Below, in pieces: positions 53,501 through 61,800 of a stretch of DNA of 64,000 nt. The DNA comes from Candidatus Poribacteria bacterium. Lineage in GTDB: Bacteria; Poribacteria; WGA-4E; PCPOR2b. The first letter of the stretch is position 1, and every line of letters starts with the position of its first letter. Location of the stretch: assembly GCA_028819845.1 (NCBI GenBank), contig JAPPKS010000021.1, forward strand, positions 1-64,000, written 5' to 3'. The notes under the pieces were generated by a model. That model ran no database searches and was not told the DNA's origin. It saw nothing but the letters and a program-made list of their open reading frames with translations. A program made the position numbers and the translations under genes.

Positions 53501-53520
53501 GCATTCTCTAGATATGAAAT

Positions 53521-53655
53521 TTAGGCACTGAGCACTTTTCGTCCCTTCGCCCGTCTTCGAGACAGGATTTTTCTCCCATCCCGATAGGACATCCGTTTAC
53601 GGAAGCCAAATTTGTTTTTTCGTTTGCGGCGGTGAGGTTGGTATGTACGTTTCAA
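53521..53655 (-). CDS. rpmH: 50S ribosomal protein L34
   Basis: 44-residue basic protein read with a TTG start at 53655. The translation [20 protein letters not shown] and the ending [12 protein letters not shown] are unmistakable L34. AGGAG lies about 8 bases before the TTG. It is transcribed away from dnaA, the usual bacterial origin layout. The next gene on its strand is an AIR-synthase-like gene, not rnpA. No ATG exists before the KRTY block. Confidence 0.97.
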
Positions 53656-53726: not shown

Positions 53727-54007
53727 GTTTAATCCCCTTCAACAAGTTCGATTTACATCTTGCGCAAAGTTCCGATTCATGATATACTAGGACTTTAGTT
53801 GCATCTTATTTCGTGGGCAGCGTTGCGGCAATGTACATAAGGTCAGACATTCTTGAGACGTTATTTTGCGCAAGGTGTATTTAAGACGATAATCGTACCG
53901 TAATTAAAATTTAGTGGGATTTTCGACCATCATTTTTTCCGACATTTATACTCTTCTTTTGCTATACAAAGTACTACTACTACCACGTTTCTAGGTCGTA
54001 TAAATTT

Positions 54008-54038
54008 TGTGGATAAGTTGTGAATAACTTGTGGATAT
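54008..54038 (+). promoter_or_regulatory. three phased DnaA boxes upstream of dnaA
   Basis: TGTGGATAA (54008-54016, consensus), TGTGAATAA (54019-54027) and TGTGGATAT (54030-54038), all in the same orientation and exactly 11 bases apart, i.e. on one face of the helix. They may serve dnaA autoregulation and a bipartite origin. Confidence 0.8.
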
Positions 54039-54209
54039 AAATCCCTCTCTCATCATTTACCCGCCAATACACCTCAGCATAGTTATTTCAAAATGTTTGC
54101 ATAGCCAACTGTATTAGTACCTTGATGTGTTTTACTTTGCTTAACACAGCTTTAATGAAACTCTCATATGGTGCCGTAATCTCCCCGCACAAATGAATCT
54201 AGGAATACT

Positions 54210-55553
54210 ATGATGCAGCAGAGCCCGAATGACATCTGGATGCAAATTTTATCTGAACTTGGTGACATTGCGCGCGAGGATATTTTTCTAAAACAGACCA
54301 AACCTATTACCCTGACCGACAGTCAGTTCACTGTATCAGTGCCAGCTCTCTTCACACAAGAGCAAATACACGATCGATTTCTAACATCGATAAACGAATA
54401 CTTAGAAGAGTTCGTGGGGACGGGATGCAGGCTTAACATCACCGTGGTTCAGCCTGATAATAATTCGACTCCCGGTTTTTCGTCCGCCGCTGCCGCAACC
54501 TCCGTACTTCCCGCTAAAGAAACCCGCCTAGACCCCAAGTGCACGTTCGACCGATTTGTCGTTGGAGCCAGTAACCGTTTGAGCCATGCTGCTGCACTTG
54601 GCTGCGCTAAAGAACCCGGAGATAAACACAACCCGCTATTCATCCATGGCGGAGTTGGGTTGGGGAAAACGCACCTGCTACATGCAGTTGGCAATTATAT
54701 CCAGGCACATCATTCACACCTCAAAGTGCTTTACGTGACTTCTGAAATCTTTATGAACGAATACATTGATTCTATTTCCGCCCGGACAACTGCGCAGGAT
54801 TTTCGTAACAAATACCGAACAGCAAACGTGCTTTTGATTGATGACATCCAGTTTCTACGGGGCAAAGAGGGCACACAGGAGGAATTCTTCCACACCTTCA
54901 ACGAGTTACATTTGAACTCGAATCAGATCGTGATGACAAGTGACCGCCCACCCAGAAACCTTGAAACTGTTGAGGAAAGACTTACGTCTCGCTTCGGGTG
55001 CGGCATGGTAGCAGATATCGATCCGCCGCAATTTGAGACACGACTGGCTATCCTGCGCCAGAAGTGCGAAGACTATGGATATGAAAATATTACTGATAGT
55101 GTTTTAAGTTACATTGCTGAAGTGGTTCAAACTAACATCCGCGATCTTGAAGGCAAACTCAATCGCCTCGTTATGGAGAGTAGTGTCCGTGAGGAAGAAT
55201 TAACTGTTGAGTTTGCGGCGCGAGTGTTAGGCCCTCTCTCTACACAATCGCCTGTCGTTCACCATAGAGCTATCACCGTCGATGATATACAAGAAGCTGT
55301 CGCCAACTATTTTGAATTAAAGATATCGCACCTGAAATCTTCCAAGCGAAACCGGGCTTACGTCTACCCGCGGCAAATTTCGATGTATCTCTGTAGAGAA
55401 TTGACAAGTATGTCATTGCAAGAAATTGCGGCTGCTTTCAATAAGCAGGATCATACCACCGTTATCCATGCGTGCGATAAAATCCAAGAAAGGATACCAC
55501 ACGATACAAAACTTGAGCAGGATATCAAATTATTGATTGCTGATATACAATAA
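54210..55553 (+). CDS. dnaA: chromosomal replication initiator DnaA
   Basis: Origin-binding AAA+ ATPase of 447 residues, normal length. Domain I (about 1-80), short linker, Walker A in HGGVGLGKTHLLHA, Walker B in NVLLIDDIQFL, sensor II region in SNVREL-like TNIRDLEGKL, and the C-terminal DNA-binding signature in FNKQDHTTVIHACDKI. TAGGA precedes a double ATG (54210 or 54213). It is transcribed toward oriC and dnaN. Confidence 0.98.
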   Translation: MMQQSPNDIWMQILSELGDIAREDIFLKQTKPITLTDSQFTVSVPALFTQEQIHDRFLTSINEYLEEFVGTGCRLNITVVQPDNNSTPGFSSAAAATSVLPAKETRLDPKCTFDRFVVGASNRLSHAAALGCAKEPGDKHNPLFIHGGVGLGKTHLLHAVGNYIQAHHSHLKVLYVTSEIFMNEYIDSISARTTAQDFRNKYRTANVLLIDDIQFLRGKEGTQEEFFHTFNELHLNSNQIVMTSDRPPRNLETVEERLTSRFGCGMVADIDPPQFETRLAILRQKCEDYGYENITDSVLSYIAEVVQTNIRDLEGKLNRLVMESSVREEELTVEFAARVLGPLSTQSPVVHHRAITVDDIQEAVANYFELKISHLKSSKRNRAYVYPRQISMYLCRELTSMSLQEIAAAFNKQDHTTVIHACDKIQERIPHDTKLEQDIKLLIADIQ

Positions 55554-56226
55554 CTTAACTAATGCCGATACATCAAATATTTGAGCCCTTTTGTTGTTGG
55601 TTGAGACCAAATAGTTACATACCATCGCGCTGTCGTGTTGCAAAAACTAATAATGGCATTTGCCTCGTGAAGTTTCTCATGTCGGATGTTCCCGCACTGA
55701 ACACCTACTGCATTATCCGCAAAATACCATTTCGGTTGCATTGCAATTGTAATTTTTATCTCCATAGCTGCGTTAATAAGAATTTCTATCAACAGGCAGC
55801 GGTTTGACGATAGCAACAATAATAACTACGCCATCAGTCTCGATAGCGAACCGTACCACAATATTTACCAGTCGGGTTTATATTTTAGCAAAACTTCGAA
55901 CAAAAAATAATGTGTATAACTTGTGGATAAGCATGTGTATAACTTTGTGTATAGTTGGTGGATAAATGTGGATAAATAAAGAGATGTACAAAAATTGTGG
56001 ATATCCGATTAATTATCCACAACTTTTACCCAGCATCGCAACCCAATAATTATTTAGCATTTCAGCAGTTATCCACATTTCCACACCTACTACTATTACT
56101 TTAATTTTTATATAAATTTATAATATCAAGAGTACAGTACTCCCAAATGAAGACGGGATTGCTTGACCGTAACCTAGCGATTAAAAGTAATTTGAAATTT
56201 TAATAACACACTTTAAGGGGGAAAAA
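55554..56226 (+). other. oriC: chromosomal origin of replication (oriC)
   Basis: 673-base dnaA-dnaN spacer. A dense DnaA-box cluster occupies 55911-56077. Plus-orientation boxes are at 55911-55919 (TGTGTATAA), 55922-55930 (TGTGGATAA), 55934-55942, 55946-55954, 55957-55965 (GGTGGATAA), 55967-55975 (TGTGGATAA) and 55996-56004. Reverse boxes TTATCCACA are at 56013-56021 and 56069-56077. After the last box come a CTA-repeat tract (56087-56101) and an AT-only stretch (about 56100-56128), fitting a DnaA-trio and unwinding element. The first 350 bases show no clear function; short frames on both strands there look like chance. Confidence 0.93.
56087..56128 (+). promoter_or_regulatory. DnaA-trio-like tract and unwinding element
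   Basis: CTA-CTA-CTA-TTA-CTT (56087-56101) is followed by about 27 bases of almost only A and T. It lies 10 bases after the consensus box at 56069-56077 and a weaker box-like ATTTCCACA (56077-56085). The order box, trio, AT-rich tract is that of the Bacillus subtilis basal unwinding system. Confidence 0.6.
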
Positions 56227-57330
56227 ATGGAGCTAATATTCGAAAAGGAAAATTTGCTAAAAGCAATACAAGTAGTACAGAGTGTAGCTGCTGGAAGAAA
56301 CACGCTGCCCATATTATCAAACGTTTTAATTGATGCGACCGGCGATCAAATTGTGATTGCATCAACAGATTTGGAGGTCGGTATTCGGATGATTGTTCCG
56401 GGGACAATATCCGACGGGGGGGCTATCACTCTCTCCGCCAGAAAACTTGCTGAAATTGCACGCGAACTTCCGCCGGCAGAAATTAGGTTTACTACAACAG
56501 CAAACGATCGCGTTGAAATTGCATGCGCCCAAGGTACGTACAAAATGATTGGTTTGCCCGATGACGAATTCCCGAATCTTCCTACAATTAAGGACGATTT
56601 TTTTACAATAAACGGCGAAGTTCTACGATCAATGATTTACAAAACGGAGTTTGCAGCTTCCATTGAGGAAACGCGGTATTTTCTTAACGGGCTTTACTTT
56701 TATTTGACGCCCGAAATTACTCAGATGGTTGCAACAGACGGGCGGCGTTTGGCTATCGCTTCAAATGGTCCATTGACACCAACGCCGCAAGAACCCATAG
56801 GGATAATTGTGCCACTCAAAGCAGTCCGTGAAATTGTCAAGACTTTTGCCGAATCGGAGGAGATACGCGTCTGTTTGCGGGAAAATCAAATCATTTTCGC
56901 GGATGATGTTGCAACCCTTACTTCTCGATTGGTGGAAGGGGAATACCCTAAATACGAGCAAATTATCCCGAAAGACAACGATGGGAAAGTTGTGCTTGAT
57001 GTGGAGTTGTTTTTCAGTGCTTTGAGGCGTGTGGCTTTGTTCTCAAACCCAAAAAATTTCTCCATCCGATTGGACGTTGATGAAAACGCAGTCAATATCT
57101 CTGCAAAAACGCCGGAATTGGGAGAGGCTGAGGAAACTATAGATTTCAAAAGCAGCAATGGCGGTATCGAAATCGCATTTGATGCACGTTTTCTGATGGA
57201 TGTGTTACGGCATATTCAAACTGAAGAGGTGGCGATGGAATTCAAGGATCCGTTGAGTGCCGTGGTTTTAAAACCTGTAGGCGAAGATAATCATCTCGGC
57301 TTGATTATGCCTATGAGGCTTGAAAGCTAG
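56227..57330 (+). CDS. dnaN: DNA polymerase III beta sliding clamp
   Basis: Ring clamp subunit of 367 residues, normal length, made of three similar domains of about 120 residues. The start MELIFEKENLLKAIQVVQSVAAGRNTLPIL and the C-terminal LIMPMRLES are family typical; the last residues shape the pocket for clamp-binding motifs. AAGGGGGA lies 5 bases before the ATG. It is followed by recF after 32 bases. Confidence 0.98.
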   Translation: MELIFEKENLLKAIQVVQSVAAGRNTLPILSNVLIDATGDQIVIASTDLEVGIRMIVPGTISDGGAITLSARKLAEIARELPPAEIRFTTTANDRVEIACAQGTYKMIGLPDDEFPNLPTIKDDFFTINGEVLRSMIYKTEFAASIEETRYFLNGLYFYLTPEITQMVATDGRRLAIASNGPLTPTPQEPIGIIVPLKAVREIVKTFAESEEIRVCLRENQIIFADDVATLTSRLVEGEYPKYEQIIPKDNDGKVVLDVELFFSALRRVALFSNPKNFSIRLDVDENAVNISAKTPELGEAEETIDFKSSNGGIEIAFDARFLMDVLRHIQTEEVAMEFKDPLSAVVLKPVGEDNHLGLIMPMRLES

Positions 57331-57362: not shown

Positions 57363-58685
57363 ATGCGATTAAACTACCTTCTGTTACGTAACTTTCGGAT
57401 TTATGTAGATTGCGAGATTGAATTTCCGAATAAAGGTAACCTGATTGTCGGCGGAAATGCACAGGGTAAAACTAGCCTGTTGGAGGCGATTTACTTTCTT
57501 AGCACAGCCAAATCCCACCGCACCTACCCAGATGTTGAGCTAATACGGCATAACGAAAACTGGTTTTATCTAAAAGGTATGATTGCGCCTGTTTGCGATG
57601 CGACTACACGAACTCAGCCCACCGGCACTCATTCTAATCTAATTCACGAATCCCCGCTCTCAAACTCGGCAGTTCAATCTAGCTATATTGAAGGATGCCA
57701 GGCATCTGCCGACATTAGTAATTGCTATTCAACTTCGTCTAAGCCCGAAAGCCAGGATCTAGACTCGCTTAATATGACTCTGGAAGTCTCGAACGAATCG
57801 AATGGCAAAAAGCGGTTTAAGCTGAATGGAGATCTTCAACGGAAGCTTTCCGAGTGGATTGGACAGTTCAATGTCGTTTTCTTTTCACCCGAATCGCTTA
57901 CTTTAGTAAAAGGGGCGCCATCCGAACGCCGACGTTTTATTGATATACTAATATCTCAACTCAGTCCGGCGTACTTAAACCATCTGCAAAATTACCAGTT
58001 TGCGCTCAAGCAACGAAATGAGCTACTGAAGCAAATTCGGGCAAATCAAGCCAGAAGCGATCTTTTAGAGGCTTGGGATTCACTACTCATTGACGATGGT
58101 GTTTCTATTATACAAACTCGAAGTAAAATGCTAAGGCAGTTGAGTACGTATGCGCAAATAAAACATAGTGAACTGACCGGTGGGAGTGAAACACTTGTCG
58201 TGGAGTACCAACCACCGGAAGCTCTCGAAGGTATTGACTCCATTAGCCAATCCGAAGCCGTGGATGAATACTTAAAGGCTCTATCTTGTTCTCGATCGCA
58301 AGATATACTCCGTGGGACGACGTCCGTAGGTCCCCACCGGGACGATTTGAAACTGACGCTAGAAACAGGGAGAGGCGAATATTTGCAACGCCAGGATGCC
58401 AAATCCTTCTGTTCACAGGGACAACAACGGACGATTGCTTTAGCTTTAAAATTGGGTGAGTTAGAGTTGATTCGTGGAATAACAGATAAAGCGCCAGTTG
58501 TATTGCTAGATGATGTTATCTCGGAACTAGATGAGATGCGTTCGGCATATTTGTTTGATATGCTGCAACGATTAAATTCACAGACATTTATCACTTCGAC
58601 GCGGCGGGAGGTTTGGACCGAATCTCTGGAAGACAGCTGCATTTTAACGATAAAAAATGGACAAGTTATCAGACAACACGCATAA
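57363..58685 (+). CDS. recF: DNA repair/replication protein RecF, with insertion
   Basis: SMC-like ATPase of 440 residues that loads RecA at gaps with RecO and RecR. Walker A GGNAQGKTSLLEAIYFLS (about 30-47), signature FCSQGQQRTIALALKLGELEL and Walker B VVLLDDVISELD. The family is usually about 360 residues; here about 60 extra residues (about 74-136) rich in Ser, Asn, Thr and Gln sit between two strands of the head domain. The reading frame is intact through it, so it is an insertion, not a frameshift. Its end overlaps the DciA-like gene by 29 bases. Confidence 0.95.
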   Translation: MRLNYLLLRNFRIYVDCEIEFPNKGNLIVGGNAQGKTSLLEAIYFLSTAKSHRTYPDVELIRHNENWFYLKGMIAPVCDATTRTQPTGTHSNLIHESPLSNSAVQSSYIEGCQASADISNCYSTSSKPESQDLDSLNMTLEVSNESNGKKRFKLNGDLQRKLSEWIGQFNVVFFSPESLTLVKGAPSERRRFIDILISQLSPAYLNHLQNYQFALKQRNELLKQIRANQARSDLLEAWDSLLIDDGVSIIQTRSKMLRQLSTYAQIKHSELTGGSETLVVEYQPPEALEGIDSISQSEAVDEYLKALSCSRSQDILRGTTSVGPHRDDLKLTLETGRGEYLQRQDAKSFCSQGQQRTIALALKLGELELIRGITDKAPVVLLDDVISELDEMRSAYLFDMLQRLNSQTFITSTRREVWTESLEDSCILTIKNGQVIRQHA

Positions 58686-59238
58686 AATTGAAAATATCCT
58701 TTCATACTTATTGCGCGAATATGGTTACGATCGTAAAATACTTGAGGCGAAAGTGCTTGCTGCCTGGGATAGTGCCGTGGGAGAACCTGTGGCGCGCAAT
58801 ACTCGAGCCATATCACTGTTTAACGGTAAGTTAACGGTTTATGCGGTGAATTCCGTTTTGATTACTGAGCTTTCGTTACTTAAGCAGCATGTCACTGAAA
58901 AAATCAACCATACTGTTGGCAAAACCGCAGTGACAGATTTGCAGTTTTTTGTAAAGCCTATCAAGCCTAGTACCCGAAAGATGCAACCTCGTCAGCCCTC
59001 CAAGCGTCTAAATAGTTTAGAAAAAGTTGTACTTACCCCTTATATTATGGAGCGAATCGATCGTAAGGTTGCCAAAGTAGAGGATACAGAGTTGAAAGCG
59101 TGCTTAAAACGTGTTTTTATGAAACAGAGCCAACGCGCTGTTATTGATGATGTCCAGTCGAAATCCGGTTACATCTCCTCCCAGAATCAACCTAATCACG
59201 ATACTGATTCTCCTGAGCGCGGCCGCGGTTCCTCATAG
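58657..59238 (+). CDS. DUF721/DciA-like helicase-loading protein
   Basis: Protein of 193 residues. The N-terminal 100 residues (LLREYGYDRKILEAKVLAAWDSAVGEPVARNT, then LTVYAVNSVLITELSLLKQHV) are the DUF721/DciA domain, a KH-like fold that delivers DnaB helicase in bacteria lacking DnaC/DnaI. The basic C-terminal part (about 105-193) is long and probably flexible. Its place between recF and gyrB is the usual one for this family. It overlaps recF, so translation is coupled. Confidence 0.85.
   Translation: MDKLSDNTHKIENILSYLLREYGYDRKILEAKVLAAWDSAVGEPVARNTRAISLFNGKLTVYAVNSVLITELSLLKQHVTEKINHTVGKTAVTDLQFFVKPIKPSTRKMQPRQPSKRLNSLEKVVLTPYIMERIDRKVAKVEDTELKACLKRVFMKQSQRAVIDDVQSKSGYISSQNQPNHDTDSPERGRGSS

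Positions 59239-59331: not shown

Positions 59332-61800
<2,469 letters not shown>

Follow-up and report, generated by a model that had tools for sequence, protein, structure and literature searches.

A probable two-part chromosomal origin around dnaA, with DnaA-trios, and its variants in related families

Does the dnaA region of this genome hold the origin of chromosome replication, and how is such an origin built? We examined a window of 64,000 nucleotides, taken from a draft genome of 35 contigs (the window's own contig is 142 kb), and compared it with related genomes whose families we coded f1 (the window's own) to f10. The gene order at the locus is rpmH-dnaA-dnaN-recF-dciA-gyrB (Table 1), with rpmH being our own assignment for a short frame whose product we take to be L34. 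When aligned, the window's DnaA has the motifs that we take to be Walker A and B, the SRF arginine finger and the DHTT residues of box recognition.

We conclude that the locus is very likely (probability about 0.93) the chromosomal oriC of a diderm, split into two parts that flank dnaA. The boxes and trios, their order, polarity, spacing and conservation, the gene context and the change of skew are all directly observed. The host is very probably a diderm: Omp85 (PF01103) has five matches in the window's genome and is present in all five genomes searched, so an outer membrane fits (7 of 14 control genomes also match).

Table 1. Genes and putative origin elements of the locus, and the second DnaA of the same genome.
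Feature	Position	Strand	Details
rpmH (ribosomal protein L34, presumed)	53519-53655	-	44-residue translation; divergent from dnaA
Upstream origin half, three DnaA boxes	54008-54038	-	Boxes at 54008, 54019, 54030; 11 bp steps; 0, 1, 1 mismatches
dnaA	54210-55553	+	PF00308 E 5e-65; PF08299 E 4e-30; PF11638 weak, under its cut-off
Downstream DnaA-box array	55911-56021	both	Minus: 55911, 55922, 55934, (55946), 55957, 55967, 55996; plus: 56013; register common to relatives
BUS box pair	56069-56085	+	TTATCCACA then ATTTCCACA, one-base overlap; box pair at same place in relatives
DnaA-trios	56087-56101	+	Top CTACTACTATTACTT, bottom 3'-GATGATGATAATGAA-5'; from sequence
AT-rich stretch, probable DNA unwinding element	56102-56128 (end approximate)		From sequence
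dnaN (sliding clamp)	56227-57330	+	PF00712, PF02767, PF02768
recF	57363-58685	+	PF02463 and gene order
dciA (replicative-helicase loader/operator family)	58657-59238	+	PF05258 E 2.5e-16
gyrB	59353-61800	+	PF00204, PF00986
Second DnaA, window genome	L115 8241-9395 (G000 contig 35)	-	ATPase and box-binding domains; no DnaA_N match

Origin elements in the window

The preliminary description had placed three same-strand boxes, 11 bases apart, ahead of dnaA, and we found them as described, all on the minus strand. Among 2000 dinucleotide shuffles of the upstream region, three boxes were reached once and two pairs at 11-bp spacing never. We give almost no credence to the idea that this cluster has an unwinding site of its own, which an adjoining CTA repeat (53974-53982) might suggest, with a CTACTACTA tract about 25 bp ahead of the first box. 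The repeat has the wrong polarity, reading TAG instead of CTA along the boxes' strand, the region's best box-trio score was matched by 935 of 2000 shuffles, and no similar tract adjoins the upstream boxes in the other eight f1/f2 loci. On polarity, shuffles and absent conservation we reject it as a second unwinding site.

Behind dnaA, the downstream cluster comprises eight boxes with at most one mismatch (the unbracketed boxes of the array in Table 1 and the plus-strand box at 56069), and the two-mismatch boxes at 55946 and 56077 raise it to ten; a stray box, also with at most one mismatch, lies apart at 55713. The earlier count of at least nine boxes after dnaA is therefore right if a two-mismatch box or the stray one is admitted, and one too high otherwise. 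Successive steps along the array and box pair are 11, 12, 12, 11, 10, 29, 17, 56 and 8 bp, so that the strict 11-bp phasing of the upstream boxes is absent here. The gap between dnaA and the array (55554-55910) is about 357 bp long in the window's genome, as against 10-26 bp in the other f1 loci and 48-196 bp in those of f2; the window's DnaA also sits on a longer branch of the DnaA tree.

As the preliminary description had it, the boxes lead to a CTA repeat followed by an AT-rich stretch. The boxes at 56069 and 56077 have 0 and 2 mismatches, and five trios begin at 56087, 9 bp from the strong box and 1 bp from the second. Searches for the basal unwinding system (BUS) have used a box with at most two mismatches, a spacer of 0-16 bp and at least three trios (3'-NAN-5') with GAT first, according to the accessible text of PMC8287927, and the window's box (which has a second box near it), spacer and trios all fall within these limits. 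Judged by sequence, the box pair, trios and AT-rich stretch together are a textbook predicted BUS.

None of 2000 shuffles of the downstream region reached nine boxes, and none reached its box-trio score. The box-trio site at 56069 ranks first of 423 candidates in the 142-kb contig, with a score of 26.1 compared to 22.1 for its own second box and 8.2 for the best unrelated site; because we chose the weight matrix by hand once the tract had been seen, it is the rank that counts here rather than the exact score. With box clusters on both sides of dnaA and a BUS far above chance, the claim of a two-part oriC with strand-opening signals is upheld.

How such an origin would work can be proposed by analogy with Bacillus subtilis and Helicobacter pylori, on which we model DnaA binding, looping, opening and loading. 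DnaA would bind the three phased upstream boxes and the larger downstream array, and a DnaA loop would probably bridge the two clusters. A DnaA filament starting at the box pair (56069-56085) would extend along the bottom strand of the trios (56087-56101) and open the AT-rich stretch, and helicase would then be loaded, presumably with help from DciA. The helicase-loading half, for which the preliminary description had also claimed signals, we only infer from the dciA gene downstream.

Conservation and skew

The preliminary description had tied its case to conservation in relatives and to a switch in GC skew, and on both points the data agree with it. We found a DnaA match in 52 of 58 relatives and in 73 of 84 genomes of the phylum. 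Boxes, box register and trios are kept in relatives: the box array is present in 9/9 f1/f2 loci, its register downstream of dnaA is common to relatives, and clusters lie on both sides of dnaA in the window as in all nine f1/f2 loci. A strict trio search succeeded in 8 of these nine loci, the ninth being truncated, and likewise in 37 of 41 f3 loci; among the four f3 misses, two loci are cut short and two have, by eye, a variant tract or lead. On contig 14 of the window's genome (G000; L250 4613-5683), two phased pairs of exact DnaA boxes, oppositely oriented and separated by about 1 kb, lie on either side of a gene.

GC skew is -0.034 for positions 1-54000 and +0.089 for positions 56230-118000. 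This sign change around the locus in the window's own contig is also seen inside genes of one strand, with third-codon-position skew going, from left to right, from -0.058 to 0.060 in plus-strand genes and from 0.003 to 0.154 in minus-strand genes. The cumulative minimum is at 45.6 kb, off the boxes, on a curve with hardly any slope between 40 and 56 kb. In the relative G005, which is assembled as one contig, skew is weak: it switches only over roughly 20 kb to either side of dnaA, and 20 samples taken around the chromosome gave no two clean arms; in G047 we looked for a sign switch at dnaA and found none.

A rival account is that the boxes mainly let dnaA and dnaN be autoregulated at the level of transcription, with replication beginning elsewhere or at several places, and the weak skew in G005 and G047 speaks for it. 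The upstream boxes lie about 170-200 bp ahead of dnaA, a distance at which autoregulatory boxes are common, and the sister family f4 seems to live without dnaA (see below). We consider autoregulation a very improbable account: the trio tract and the box pair, together with the precise distance between them, are strongly conserved and have no known role in autoregulation, and skew does change sign around the locus in the window's contig.

Variants in related families

Phased box pairs upstream of dnaA occur in 9/9 f1/f2 loci versus 0/41 f3 loci (two of the 41 have less than 600 bp upstream). Such pairs are also found outside the order, in loci of f5 (G060), f8 and f10, so f3 more likely lost its upstream boxes, and the bipartite origin is probably ancestral. 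The same occurrences in f5, f8 and f10 led us to drop the idea that the upstream boxes were gained jointly with a second DnaA. As a separate observation, dnaN lies away from the dnaA cluster in f3 (L198-L203; G013, G026, G031, G039), and the four f3 genomes searched have three or four dnaN matches each, of which one lies in a frame 577-606 codons long.

The second DnaA is a paralogue of about 380-400 residues present in 11/11 f1/f2 genomes, including the window's (Table 1; homologues L116-L125). In the alignment, each of the 11 has retained Walker A and B, and none has domain I or the SRF arginine-finger motif. No second full-length DnaA match was found in f3 genomes (G033 has a short C-terminal fragment). 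A tree built with 7 of the 11 places them in a single clade with a long stem, nested among the DnaAs of the order, which probably reflects an old duplication and fast change. The accessible text of PMC8287927 reports that DnaA variants lacking the arginine finger bind nucleotide but cannot open DNA, and for this reason our guess is that the second DnaA is a cap or regulator. A literature search found no description of a paralogue like it.

In f3 the opening element seems to be mirrored: a box, trios and AT core are followed by opposite-strand trios and a box, usually with 3-4 bp between box and trios and about five trios, facing the first BUS. The mirror was first spotted by eye and then tested against shuffles in the 90 bp to the right of the trios. 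We tested 47 of 50 f3 loci, leaving out L214 (which passes in a separate test) and L026 and L166 (whose flank is too short); the 47 include L265, where the first BUS was not found either and which was scored as a miss. The opposite-strand box-trio element beats 95% of shuffles in 37 of the 47 loci, and 33 pass at the 1% level; a same-strand control passes in 6. The element was found in 0/8 f1/f2 loci, and a search for the mirror in the window gave opposite-strand trios with P = 0.23 and no box. In other phyla (80 loci, mostly Firmicutes), 53 loci had a first BUS and sufficient flank, and 5 of these pass at 5% and 1 at 1%, which is near chance. Of seven outgroup loci from the same phylum, four pass for opposite-strand trios, one of them with a low score, and one passes for the box-trio element. 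Examples of the opposed BUS can be seen in L012, L015, L020, L027 and L168, about 55-65 bp past the start of the CTA tract.

The sequence variant of the far box tracks that of the first BUS box. We compared the two in 48 f3 loci, all but L214 and L265. A recognisable box pair together with a far match was present in 26, and the variants agree in 23 of these, among them all four loci with TTATCAACA and the single one with TTATGCACA; the three loci that disagree have one doubtful far match in common. In a looser test, the agreement of the far box with the whole left array was reached in 0 of 10000 permutations (27 loci), and these mirror statistics overstate the case because related sequences are not independent. 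In genus g6 of f3 the far box is poor or absent. We found no description of an opposed-BUS arrangement in a literature search, which covered mostly non-subscription sources and included the accessible parts of PMC10201434, PMC10316083, PMC13220808 and PMC13326638.

In f4, represented by three draft genomes (G011, G014 and G016, with completeness of 96, 96 and 80%; loci L195, L196 and L197), dnaA seems to have been lost. There was no match to PF00308 in any of the three and none over the cut-off to PF08299 (one noise match, E 1.4). The genes dnaN, recF and gyrB are present and adjacent, and neither dnaA nor a box cluster was found between dnaN and the gene to its left, which is 393 and 491 bp off in two genomes and 283 bp in the third. 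The f4 genomes have 0, 1 and 0 phased box pairs (1, 1 and 1 in a reversed-pattern control), compared to 3 to 10 in eight dnaA-bearing genomes. In a GyrB tree, f4 falls somewhere within the order (100/99). Free-living bacteria without dnaA were unknown before certain cyanobacteria, according to the accessible text of PMC7198777; f4, whose genomes measure 5.2 to 7.0 Mb, would add one more case, in another phylum.

We rejected true loss for the f3 and f1 genomes that have no dnaA match, which are explained by assembly gaps. G006, G008, G013, G031, G070 and G071 lack a recF match as well, the second DnaA still being present in G006 and G008. For G039, G076 and G077, the contig breaks off 142-244 bp past the recF match.

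A tentative and rather doubtful scenario would connect these families. The class ancestor may have opened its origin symmetrically, from a head-to-head BUS pair on one AT core, with filaments on both strands each placing one helicase. Family f3 would have kept this arrangement; in f1/f2 the far half would have decayed while the second DnaA, which lacks domain I and the arginine finger, emerged, perhaps as a filament cap or box-bound regulator; and f4 would have lost both dnaA and oriC. If true, symmetric opening would be a sequence-encoded answer to the loading of the second helicase. How helicase reaches the strand that lies across from the DnaA filament is, for B. subtilis, described as unclear in the accessible text of PMC10201434; with two trio arrays facing each other in one origin, second-strand helicase loading would become directly testable.

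Comparison with known origins

The box, trio and AT-rich order had been likened to that of B. subtilis, and both the order and the strand polarity do match, as do the gene neighbours. In the layout given in the accessible text of PMC13220808, B. subtilis has a bipartite oriC with boxes on both sides of dnaA and a BUS in which a downstream pair leads to trios and an AT-rich DUE, as here. The window differs from B. subtilis in its very probably diderm host, in having dciA in the cluster, and in a box pair that overlaps by a base.

In H. pylori, the gene neighbours and the box sequence differ from the window's, and the window is also unlike it in placing its opening half in the interval from dnaA to dnaN. 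What the two have in common is a diderm host (very probably so in the window), two box clusters and a trio-bearing DUE in one of them; a two-cluster origin (oriC1/oriC2) with DnaA-trios was already described in H. pylori (accessible text of PMC8235120). The emphasis that the preliminary description laid on a diderm is very probably correct as to the host, given the five Omp85 matches, and does not hold as a novelty in view of this precedent.

BUSs have been predicted in 1755 of 2070 origins (85%) and are functional in three Gram-negative species (PMC8287927, accessible text); on box, spacer and trios the window shows no difference from the systems described in that text. The f3 origins differ from them in a second, apparently opposed BUS on a common AT core, which that text does not describe. 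Given the H. pylori precedent and the prediction of BUSs in 85% of origins, the window origin is a sound, ordinary case of a known type. It adds a two-part origin with DnaA-trios from its phylum, and the greater interest lies in its kin of the same order.
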